Source: Methanocalculus taiwanensis
Lineage (GTDB): Archaea > Halobacteriota > Methanomicrobia > Methanomicrobiales > Methanocorpusculaceae
Length of the DNA stretch: 64,000 nucleotides
Assembly: GCF_024372745.1 (NCBI RefSeq)
Contig: NZ_VOTZ01000004.1
Span: 1-64,000 of the forward strand
Direction of reading: 5' to 3'
The notes under the pieces are model-generated. The model was not told where the DNA came from. It was given only the letters and a program-made list of their open reading frames with translations, and made no database searches. Made by a program: the position numbers and the translations under genes. Positions 48,657 to 52,959 of the stretch are shown here, in pieces; positions within the stretch are counted from its first letter, which is position 1, and every line of letters starts with the position of its first letter.

Positions 48657-51515
48657 TCACTCAAGCTCAGGAATATGACCCTTCGCCGATTCATAGGTTC
48701 TGAGTGCAACAGGATTTCCAAGTACTATTCTCTTTAATGTCAGCTGGATTGCAGCAGAAGATGCCTTTCTCAGGAGATTGATAAGTATACCCATCAATGG
48801 AATATGAGTTGCAGGATCCATCCGGTCAACATGAGAAAAGGCGATAAGGAGCCCGGTTGTTGTATATTCGTTGACATCCATCAGGCGGAACAGGGCATCT
48901 TCAAAAAACGATCTCCCGTCTTCAGTCTCAAGGGATTTTTTCCTGTTTCTTGCAAAACGCCCAAAAAGCGCCCTCTGATCGTTAGCCTGTTCAATCCTGA
49001 GATAACCTGAGGATTCAATCTCCCTGAGAAGAGAGACCAGATCCTCTGCATCTGAGCTGGCAGTTGCTGCAAGGAACTGCTCCCAGACAACTGGATCCTT
49101 TCTTGCCCAATTCATCATATCCCGGAACAGCTCCAGTCGATCCGAATCAGATGAGGCGATCAGGAGAGAGAATGCATGCATACGATCCGTTGCAATAGAC
49201 GTATTCAGATACTGGTTTTTGATCATCTCGTGGATGTCCGGGGTGTCGAGCCGGGCAAGAAGGCGGAGACAGAGGTTCTTCACCTGGCGATTTCTGACAA
49301 ATACGGCAAGCCCCCCGATCGATTCCCAGGTATGATCCGTCTGGTGGTATGCCTTATATAATGCCTGAAGTGTTGGAGCCTGCGATGTAGCGATAGCCAG
49401 CTCCATCCTGCGCCGTGCCTCATATGCAGCCCGGTAATGGTGGGCAACGGCAGGGTCCCCTGCATCCTCAAAGAGGGTCAGAACCTGTGCACCAGCCCCT
49501 TCCATCAGTTCTGGATCTGAGAGGAGATCAATAAACAGGGTGATGAACGCACCCGAGGGACCAGCATCCGGGTTCTTCATCAACCTGTTAAGCTCCATTG
49601 AAGCAATCGAATGAAATGCAAGGTATCTACCTGCAATATCCGGATCGGTTCGTGCCTGAAGATACAGGAGATCTTCACCCGGATGATAATTTAGGAGGCC
49701 GTAACATGAGAAGCCACGGTTCAGTGAATAGTAGGCAGGGCAGTCGACATCCTCAAAGATGATCTGCTCCTCTGCCTGTTGCACAAGGTGGCAGCGGGAG
49801 GCGATTTCAGTGCCATCTTCTTTCATCAGAGCAAGGTCAAACGGGAATATCCATGGGGGATTGCCCCCGGACTGAAGGAGATGAACGGTGCATAGCCGCT
49901 CTTCCGGATTATAATAAGGATTTACAGTAATAGTCGGGAATCCCGGTCGCTTCAGCCAGCCTTCTGCCATTGGGCCAAGATCCACTCCTGCAACCGATCC
50001 CATCAGGTGCACCCAGTCATCCCTGCTGGCATTTGAGTGTGCAAATTTCCTGTGATACAGTGAGAGCGCCCAGACAAAAGGCTCTTTTCCGAGAATTTTT
50101 TCAACCATCCTGACAAATTCCGGTGCCTTGACATAGGTGACAGACGTGATCAGATCATTTGGATCATTGAAACCATCCGGCTCAATCGGCATTGCGGCTG
50201 CCCCGGTATCCCGGGCAAATGTTCCGTCCGCAGGGTCGAGGAGGGAGAGGATCGTCTGGAGGCGGCTGTAGTCCTCGCCAAAGTGAAATGCATGGTACTG
50301 CTGTTCAACATGGACGGTAACAGCTTCGTTCAGCCAGATCTCAAAAGGAGTCTCCCCGGTTACTTCTGATCCATTCAGGTTATGGTAGTACTCATGTAAC
50401 TTGACCCGCATAAGATACTCAAAGCCCGCGTCAGTCATCCCTGCAAACGGCATCAGCCGGTTTGTCGAGATGGTCGTATTTCCGACATTCTCCATCCCGC
50501 CGAAATCGGAGTTCTGCATTCCGATCTCACGGTACACCGATCCGGTATAGATGTACCCGCCGACAATCTCCTTGTCTAGAAGCTCCATCTGGCGGGTGAT
50601 CCGCAGGAGATCGGCTGCATCTGCCCCACGTTTCCTGAGCTTTGCACGCTTGTTATAAAGCCGGTAGATCTCGTGCCTGACTTCAACCTGCTCATAACAA
50701 TGAGGGCCGGTGAAAAGGTACACCCAGAGGATGCCATCCTCAAGGATATCAAGTGCCTGTTCTGCACGGATAGGATCAGATCCCGGAGGGCAGAGGAGTT
50801 CGAGCAGAAAAGTCCTGCCAGAGGGGTATTCAAAGGTCCGCCGGAAGGAGGCATAGGTGCCGACACCAAGGAAGAAGAGGTAGGGTGCCATCGGTGTCGT
50901 GATGTTCTCATAGGTGATCAAGTCCCTTTCAAAAGATGCAGGGTGCTGATGCAGGAACCGTGAAGTCTGCGATAATGGATGCCCTTTTGTCAGCCTGTGC
51001 CGGGGGGTTGCGATATCGCCGTTTGAGATCATATGGGTATACGCTGAGTCGGCGATGATGGTTGTCCTGTACGTGCATTTGGCAGTCATCTCATCGATAC
51101 AGGGCACAAGCCGCTCAAATCCCCATTGTTGGCACTGGGTGATCTGGGTGGGCGGTGAACCCTCCGGAGTCTCATCATAATAGAGTCCTTCAAGGAGGGT
51201 GTGTGAGGGTCGGCAGATCGTCTCGCTCTGAATAATAAACTCGGTTTGGGGCGGGATGTCATCTCCGAATGAAATACGGAGAGTATCTTCCTCCTGGGTA
51301 TATTCGCACCAGCGGCCCCTGCATGAGATGGAGTGGATCTCAAGATCCTTTGCATTCAGGTAGAGGGATCGGATGGGAGTGGACTGTGTCCTGAAGAGGG
51401 TTTCTGCAAGGACGCGGGTCTCGGTATCAGAGATGGCAAAGGTAAGATCCATATGAATGACATCAACGGGGGAAGGTGAGAAGTCCGAGCGGTAGTACCG
51501 GAATCGCGGAGGCAT
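48657..51515 (-). CDS. M1-family aminopeptidase (PepN-like)
   Basis: 952 residues. Zinc site HEYYH at 374-378 with the third ligand E397 (HExxH-x18-E), and the exopeptidase motif GGMEN at 339-343. The N-terminal ~190 residues form the beta-saddle domain and the C-terminal ~350 residues a helical ARM-like domain, as in E. coli-type aminopeptidase N. It removes N-terminal residues from peptides in the cytoplasm; there is no signal peptide. A charged insertion (YRLYNKRAKLRKRGADAADL) lies between the saddle and catalytic regions. The gene is solitary, divergent from the structured RNA candidate. Confidence 0.9.
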   Translation of the reverse strand: MPPRFRYYRSDFSPSPVDVIHMDLTFAISDTETRVLAETLFRTQSTPIRSLYLNAKDLEIHSISCRGRWCEYTQEEDTLRISFGDDIPPQTEFIIQSETICRPSHTLLEGLYYDETPEGSPPTQITQCQQWGFERLVPCIDEMTAKCTYRTTIIADSAYTHMISNGDIATPRHRLTKGHPLSQTSRFLHQHPASFERDLITYENITTPMAPYLFFLGVGTYASFRRTFEYPSGRTFLLELLCPPGSDPIRAEQALDILEDGILWVYLFTGPHCYEQVEVRHEIYRLYNKRAKLRKRGADAADLLRITRQMELLDKEIVGGYIYTGSVYREIGMQNSDFGGMENVGNTTISTNRLMPFAGMTDAGFEYLMRVKLHEYYHNLNGSEVTGETPFEIWLNEAVTVHVEQQYHAFHFGEDYSRLQTILSLLDPADGTFARDTGAAAMPIEPDGFNDPNDLITSVTYVKAPEFVRMVEKILGKEPFVWALSLYHRKFAHSNASRDDWVHLMGSVAGVDLGPMAEGWLKRPGFPTITVNPYYNPEERLCTVHLLQSGGNPPWIFPFDLALMKEDGTEIASRCHLVQQAEEQIIFEDVDCPAYYSLNRGFSCYGLLNYHPGEDLLYLQARTDPDIAGRYLAFHSIASMELNRLMKNPDAGPSGAFITLFIDLLSDPELMEGAGAQVLTLFEDAGDPAVAHHYRAAYEARRRMELAIATSQAPTLQALYKAYHQTDHTWESIGGLAVFVRNRQVKNLCLRLLARLDTPDIHEMIKNQYLNTSIATDRMHAFSLLIASSDSDRLELFRDMMNWARKDPVVWEQFLAATASSDAEDLVSLLREIESSGYLRIEQANDQRALFGRFARNRKKSLETEDGRSFFEDALFRLMDVNEYTTTGLLIAFSHVDRMDPATHIPLMGILINLLRKASSAAIQLTLKRIVLGNPVALRTYESAKGHIPELE

Positions 51516-51610
51516 GAGGATGTATTCGATCTGGAAGGGGTAAAAGGTGATGGTGAGGGGGCGGAGAACGATCTATTGGCCTCCTCGCTATTTTATGTGA
51601 GTAGTTTGAA

Positions 51611-51831
51611 GCAGGTGCGGCGCGGGTATCGGGGGGCGGGCTGGCGAGAGATCAGGCGGAAAGAGGTGATATACCCTTGCTTATCAGAGCAACCTGAAAG
51701 GCGATTCGTAGAATCGGAGTATATCTCCTCTGGCAGACCAAAGGAGCATTCCCGCCCCCTCCCCGCGCTAGCATCTGCGACCGCCCAGTACAACCTCCCT
51801 GCGAAGCATGTGAGGACGGGGACGGGGCGGT
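51611..51831 (+). ncRNA. Candidate structured RNA, multi-branched, GC-rich
   Basis: Helices found by eye: 51611-51618 with 51771-51778; 51620-51626 with 51762-51768; 51632-51640 with 51751-51759; 51662-51674 with 51719-51731 (one mismatch); hairpins 51677-51681/51688-51692 and 51702-51707/51711-51716; and a second domain 51780-51786 with 51825-51831 enclosing a short hairpin (51794-51815). The first helix pairs fully only with a G-U wobble when read as the plus strand, which is the reason for the strand call. It lacks the GAGGAAAGUCC box of RNase P RNA and the GGAAG/AGCA motif of SRP RNA. A weak TATA-like TATTTTATG lies at 51589. The open frames across it show no protein-like composition. Confidence 0.45.
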
Positions 51832-52023
51832 GGGGAAACGCCTTAGTGAACAGATCCTGATGATGATACAAACACCTGACAACCAGATGATGACTCGTTC
51901 CCTATGTAAAACCCATACGAATCAGCGACGAGCCATCTATTGAGTGTTGTGAAACCCTCCTGGTACATAACGTGCCTCAAACAACCGGCAGACCAAAATA
52001 CTCCATCATTTCATTATCCTCTT
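51832..52023. other. Non-coding spacer ahead of alanine dehydrogenase
   Basis: No convincing gene. It holds two RTGATGA-like boxes (near 51859 and 51885) and a CTGA (51877), but no complete C/D sRNA. CCAAAATACT near 51991 sits ~27 nt before ATG 52024 and is the likely TATA element of the next gene. Confidence 0.4.
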
Positions 52024-52959
52024 ATGAAATATTACCCTGATGCGAGCAGGAGCCTCACCTACCCGGAAGTCAACTCTGCAATTGAAGAAGTCTTTGCAGA
52101 ACATGGGCGGGGCACTGTCCAGATGCCGCCGAAGATCTATATCACATTCCCTGAGGGTGATTTCAGGACGATGCCTGCGTCAATTCCGGCGATGAATCTT
52201 GCCGGTGTGAAGATCGTAAACGTCCACCCCGGTAATCCTGCACATGGCCTTCCAACGGTGATGGCAACCATCATCCTTATCGATCCGGATACAGGGGTGC
52301 AGACAGCCTTAATCGATGCAACCGCCCTCACTGATATGAGAACAGGGGCAGCCGGGGCGGTGGCTGCGAAATATCTGGCGGCGAAGAAACCGCTGACAGT
52401 AGGGCTTGTCGGGAGCGGGCGGCAGGCAGAGGCACAGCTCAATGCAGTCGCAGCAGAATGCGATGTCGAAGAGGTGATCGTATGGAGCAGGAGGAGAAAG
52501 AATGCCGAACGGTTTGCCGTTGCATATCCACAGTTGAATACATCACCTGCCGGATCGATTGAGGAAGCCTGCAACTGCGATCTCCTCATCACCACAACGC
52601 CTTCCAGGGAGCCGCTTATCAGATCTGAGTGGATTGCTGCCGGAACACATATCAATGCAATCGGAGCCGATGCCCCCGGCAAACAGGAGCTTGATCCAGC
52701 ACTGCTTGCCCGTGCCAGGGTTTTTGTGGATGACTATGAGCAGGCGATCCATTCCGGGGAAGTTAATGTGCCGATCAGATCAGGTGTGTATTCAGCAGAC
52801 AGGATTATTGGCACACTCGGGGAGGTAGTGATTGGAGAGAAGCGGAGAATTTCAGCAGATGCTGTCACGATATTTGATTCGACAGGGCTAGCAGTGCAGG
52901 ATCTGGCAATTGCACGGCTTGTTGTTGAAAAGATGGAAGGAAAAGAGATCGAACTATAA
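52024..52959 (+). CDS. ala: Archaeal alanine dehydrogenase (ornithine cyclodeaminase/mu-crystallin family)
   Basis: 311 residues from MKYYPDASRSLTYPEV. VGLVGSGRQAEAQLNAV is the dinucleotide-binding loop, VNVHPGNPAHGLPTVMATIILIDPDTG and ATALTDMRTGAAGAVAAKYLA (with the substrate-binding arginine/lysine region) are family blocks, and NAIGADAPGKQELDP follows. It is probably an NAD-dependent alanine dehydrogenase as described for Archaeoglobus; ornithine cyclodeaminase activity cannot be excluded. An upstream in-frame ATG at 51940 is rejected because the family N-terminus begins at 52024 and a TATA-like box lies 27 nt ahead. Confidence 0.82.
   Translation: MKYYPDASRSLTYPEVNSAIEEVFAEHGRGTVQMPPKIYITFPEGDFRTMPASIPAMNLAGVKIVNVHPGNPAHGLPTVMATIILIDPDTGVQTALIDATALTDMRTGAAGAVAAKYLAAKKPLTVGLVGSGRQAEAQLNAVAAECDVEEVIVWSRRRKNAERFAVAYPQLNTSPAGSIEEACNCDLLITTTPSREPLIRSEWIAAGTHINAIGADAPGKQELDPALLARARVFVDDYEQAIHSGEVNVPIRSGVYSADRIIGTLGEVVIGEKRRISADAVTIFDSTGLAVQDLAIARLVVEKMEGKEIEL

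Follow-up and report, generated by a model that had tools for sequence, protein, structure and literature searches.

What is the GC-rich, strongly foldable segment that lies between two genes near position 51,600 of this 64,000-nucleotide stretch of the Methanocalculus taiwanensis genome (hereafter the window)? The original prediction had proposed an archaeal non-coding RNA of no recognised family. Folding of the plus strand at window positions 51600-51840 gave -110.9 kcal/mol, compared with -90.5 ± 5.3 kcal/mol for 200 dinucleotide shuffles (z = -3.82, with none of the 200 as good), confirming that complementarity is beyond expectation. The helices were recovered at the predicted positions: G51611-C51618 pairs with G51771-C51778, followed by GCGCGGG/CCCGCGC, GGGGGGCGGG/CCCGCCCCC and an inner stem, and the outer helix does contain a G-U pair (G51615-U51774). 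While the region is indeed GC-rich, the z-score of -3.8 and the recurrence of the same fold, with covariation, in 44 copies leave chance complementarity a negligible probability. The minus strand was found to be equally structured (z = -4.04) and folding energy therefore does not choose between the strands.

The alignment of 44 full copies (79% mean column identity, approximately 70 invariant columns) defines a conserved structured core at 51608-51835 (plus strand), common to the type A and type B elements described below. The RNAalifold consensus of the plain alignment was uninformative, and inspection by eye indicated that the 5' arm could pair with two similar 3' segments. The fold was settled by folding each copy alone and realigning with a covariance model. 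Domain 1 (51611-51778, plus strand) consists of a long nested stem closed by an inner junction, and most copies fold alike when treated separately. This junction had been predicted to be three-way with two hairpins, whereas separate folding of the 44 copies reveals a four-way arrangement with three inner hairpins (TTGCTC/GAGCAA, CCU/AGG and CGATTC/GAATCG). Domain 2 (51780-51831, plus strand) is a hairpin with a conserved TGCGAAGCA motif. It folds as predicted in the window copy but is less consistent in the others, with the outer helix formed in 80% of cells and one pair failing in 26 of the 44 copies.

A known RNA family was rejected as an Infernal-type check against Rfam gave no match at the gathering score, archaeal RNase P and SRP RNA included, in line with the original claim; up to E = 10 only chance matches were obtained. 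Downstream of the core, a weak sR18-like C/D-box motif at window 51858-51899 (E = 1.7) was set aside, its C box being unconserved in type A copies as judged by eye. Frequent indels that are not multiples of three among the aligned copies speak against coding.

The core is contained within a 356-bp element (51579-51934, plus strand) that runs from GCCTCCTCGC at 51579 through GACGAGCC at 51934. The left terminal inverted repeat GCCTCCTCGCTATTTTATGTGAGT (51579-51602, plus strand) differs at 3 of 24 positions from one end of the intact G033 ISL3 transposons (GGCTCCTCGCTGTTTTATGTGGGT). The right repeat (51911-51934), with the minus-strand sequence GGCTCGTCGCTGATTCGTATGGGT, is similar to the ISL3 end GGCTCTTCGCTAAATCCTGTGGGT. 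The two repeats are imperfect (left GCCTCCTCGCTATTT, right GGCTCGTCGCTGATT as reverse complement), and a conserved GGCTCTTCGCTGAT is present at the right end of type A copies, to which the window copy belongs. An 8-bp target-site duplication ATCTATTG brackets the element, the left copy at 51571-51578 matching the right copy at 51935-51942 in 8 of 8 positions. For the 42 copies with recognisable ends, the mean flank match is highest at a length of 8, and at least 6 of 8 flanking bases match in 16 of these copies versus 2.2 expected from shuffles. The insertion lies between two divergent genes, encoding an M1 peptidase and an ornithine cyclodeaminase-like protein (OCD/mu-crystallin family), with window 51515-52024 corresponding to the region between their starts. 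Intergenic regions of G006 (CACGATCTATCGA) and G004 align across the junction without the element, and the corresponding region in G001 similarly lacks it.

The element is short, devoid of a transposase gene, multi-copy and dispersed, and there is little doubt that window 51579-51934 is a non-autonomous ISL3-family transposon (MITE). A stand-alone non-coding RNA gene at a fixed place, as had been proposed, would be in keeping with the strong fold, the lack of an Rfam match, the covariation and the slower change relative to the flanks. However, the terminal inverted repeats, the 8-bp duplications, the empty sites, the dispersed copies and the absence of any copy from two Methanocalculus genomes (G005 and G007) make such a gene very improbable: the structured segment is instead the core of a transposable element. 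A type C repeat, a different ISL3-associated repeat as found after the L151 transposase remnant, was observed near the OCD gene start in L148 (G003) and L149 (G007), which represent one shared gene neighbourhood. It apparently occupies this peptidase/OCD intergenic region as well, which suggests that the site has been targeted repeatedly.

The assignment to ISL3 is based on the match between the 5' end of the element and the terminal repeat of intact ISL3 transposons, together with the 8-bp duplications. Such intact transposons occur in two other Methanomicrobiales genomes (G033 and G209), with 8-bp duplications, ends such as GGCTCCTCGCTGTTTTATGTGGGT and GGCTCTTCGCTAAATCCTGTGGGT, and ORFs of 402-414 aa belonging to PF01610. 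The Methanomicrobiales ISL3 sequences (PF01610; L172, L173, L178 and L182) share terminal sequence and duplication length with the 356-bp window MITE but are 1.3-1.6 kb long and consist mostly of the transposase gene. The three G033 copies are 1351 bp with a 414-aa ORF, and hence only approximately 100 nt lie outside the gene. The structured core was not found with the intact ISL3 elements, and the core model gave no match in any genome of the class outside Methanocalculus.

An active MITE is expected to have an autonomous partner, a partner not being part of the definition of MITE origin. Searches of the fragmented Methanocalculus assemblies using terminal-repeat patterns and the ISL3 transposase family did not reveal an autonomous partner with the same ends. 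The sole ISL3 transposase trace is a 51-aa C-terminal remnant in G002, with a type B-like terminal repeat following approximately 350 bp downstream, and the other seven genomes yielded nothing above threshold. A trans-acting ISL3 transposase probably moved the copies; its gene would now be largely lost from these genomes or missing from their assemblies. A separate element of approximately 810 bp in G004 (L152:1764-2574, contig C12) combines type B-like ends with two type C-like units and lacks the structured core, showing that ISL3-type MITEs can be core-free.

When 61 genomes were searched at the DNA level, many copies were identified in the genome containing the window and in five further Methanocalculus genomes, with no convincing match outside the genus. 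Copies were counted using a covariance model of domain 1, matches above 110 bits being taken as full copies, which gave a total of 68: 8 in G000, 13 in G001, 26 in G002, 2 in G003, 7 in G004 and 12 in G006. Six of the eight Methanocalculus genomes thus contain 2 to 26 copies, with zero in G005 and G007. The other 224 genomes of the class contained no core copies when searched with the same model under stricter filters, and plasmids, phages and IMG/VR contigs gave no match. An exact core match in a Chloroflexota bin was rejected as evidence of spread outside the genus: the contig is most likely mis-binned, as its KatG is 97% identical to that of a Methanocalculus genome. This Chloroflexota-filed contig, most likely from Methanocalculus (L133:3660-5482; JAKOVF010000242.1), contains a type B element into which a DDE_Tnp_1 transposon has inserted. 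A second core match in public records is filed in a Bacteroidales bin.

Shortened derivatives were also found, one of 218 bp from terminal repeat to terminal repeat (L079) and another of approximately 124 bp (L085). Four G004 contigs (L072, L073, L074 and L075) stop at a type A terminal repeat or a few bases away from one. Assembly breaks caused by near-identical copies would have this effect, and G004 may therefore hold more copies than counted. The sequences on either side of the core differ and sort into types. The window element belongs to a MITE set confined to Methanocalculus, with ISL3-like ends of two kinds and one common structured core of approximately 225 nt. The literature searched contained no description of repeats or MITEs in Methanocalculus. 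Of the original view, a real and conserved fold outside Rfam is supported; the element carrying it was found only in Methanocalculus, where two of the eight genomes lack it.

Is the core kept as RNA, or merely as DNA? In the covariance-model alignment of 61 distinct rows, pairing is kept in 93.5% of cells, and changes on both sides are seen in 21 of the 64 pairs, compared with 9.0 ± 1.7 in shuffles (none of 500 reaching the observed number) and 2-6 double-change pairs in slid-partner controls; as this alignment is fitted to the structure, these counts lean towards it. The unfitted MAFFT alignment contains 13 double-change pairs, which is not above shuffles, while the number of double-change cells is (59 versus 35.6). 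The compensatory changes in relatives that would mark a functional RNA are hence present beyond controls on the structure-fitted alignment, and by cells rather than pairs on the unfitted one. Matched changes could also arise without selection, through template switching (quasi-palindrome correction) or gene conversion between copies. Long inverted repeats would be prone to such correction, many copies are available for conversion, and a double change could then occur in one event. Yet the short 3-bp inner hairpin also varies in step, and the contrast between paired and unpaired positions reported below is not obviously predicted by correction alone, so that we consider this origin of the covariation rather unlikely.

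The strand on which the core might act was examined through G-U pairs. On the plus strand, 228 G-U cells were counted versus 40 A-C cells, although much of this excess stems from three pairs with a G-U consensus. For G-C pairs alone, C-to-U changes occur in 2.9% of cells and G-to-A changes in 1.6%. The lean is not significant when counted by columns (23 of 40 versus 18 of 40, p = 0.37). This amounts to a modest lean towards a plus-strand RNA, the strand originally favoured. The similar folding of both strands would fit a core conserved as DNA only, serving transposition as a hairpin or through transposase-binding repeats and having no RNA role. The core also contains three similar GCANNTGCGG segments, and stable folds are usual for MITEs (PMC10969869). 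Against this, G-U is (weakly) tolerated more than A-C, old resident copies remain conserved, and such a core is missing from the intact ISL3 elements examined. A purely DNA-level role is thus a serious but improbable contender, slightly ahead of the template-switching account.

The conservation of resident copies was assessed using five pairs in which copies occupy the same place in two species; other pairs, sharing only one flank or differing in element type, were taken by eye as separate insertions and left out. The cores differ at 60 of 1129 positions and the flanks at 1672 of 12437, and the core thus changes approximately 2.5 times slower than neighbouring DNA, the flank rate being approximate since the two sides can differ and only one flank could be aligned for one pair. 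In each of the five pairs the core is closer than the flanks (p from 0.04 to 2e-9). Stem positions differ in 28 of 640 cells versus 32 of 215 for unpaired positions, and where orthologous copies differ at a single stem position, the pair is mostly left open and not restored. In L039/L069 the rest of the element is conserved too, in contrast to L046/L065 and L044/L063, where conservation is restricted to the core. The core phylogeny joins both copies as nearest relatives in four of the five pairs, L112/L086 being absent from the tree. The tree does not divide cleanly by end type: several supported groups contain both type A and type B copies, as would fit a core exchanged among MITEs that differ in their ends.

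The genomic setting differs between the two types. Genes were called within 600 bp on both sides of 16 type A copies, and 11 of these copies are located between convergent genes, compared with 7 of 41 pairs of adjacent genes in the window; the comparison draws on this single 64-kb stretch and on genes from a simple ORF caller. No preference for convergent genes is seen among type B copies, and the window copy is itself an exception, as it lies between divergent genes. The pneumococcal repeats BOX, RUP and SPRITE are likewise enriched between convergent genes, a pattern that their authors attribute to insertions being tolerated there (PMC3049150), and the convergent setting alone is therefore not evidence for function.

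We propose that the core is kept because it can fold as RNA. The majority of type A insertions are found directly downstream of genes, and the element would be read within the 3' end of the transcript. There, the fold could terminate, shield or insulate the mRNA, or flag it for processing. Such an RNA-level function is plausible, if somewhat short of an even chance, and the core would probably act in transcript 3' ends, as judged from the placement of type A copies. A more far-reaching version is a new class of transposon-borne structured RNA, in which the core would have been captured by ISL3-type MITEs, exchanged between MITEs with different ends and, once inserted, kept by selection as a ready-made RNA module for convergent genes at their 3' ends; this is a tentative proposal that we regard as doubtful. 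Taken as a whole, an ISL3-type MITE is very probably the right explanation of the locus, the retention of its core as RNA being the less certain part, and the best reading is that of a new family of ISL3-type MITEs whose core is unusual, constrained and structured.

MITE folds are usually taken as a by-product of inverted repeats. Here, the core fold covaries, spans MITEs with different ends and evolves slower than neighbouring DNA. A test thus becomes possible of whether providing a useful RNA structure at archaeal gene ends allows a short transposon to spread or to be tolerated, and the matching base changes suggest that this transposon may carry a working structured RNA, beyond a passive inverted repeat.

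The closest precedents are other archaeal MITEs, including a 179-bp MITE of ISL3 type in Methanosarcina acetivorans that has ISMac21 as its partner (PMC3852290). These are likewise short, non-coding and multi-copy with ISL3-type ends, whereas the Methanocalculus elements contain a covarying core of 225 nt that is common to MITEs with two different kinds of ends. The BOX, RUP and SPRITE elements of Streptococcus pneumoniae (PMC3049150) are also short interspersed repeats with stable predicted RNA folds, and BOX is modular. In contrast to these elements of a bacterial host, the Methanocalculus ends are of ISL3 type, and the likeness lies in size, fold and placement.
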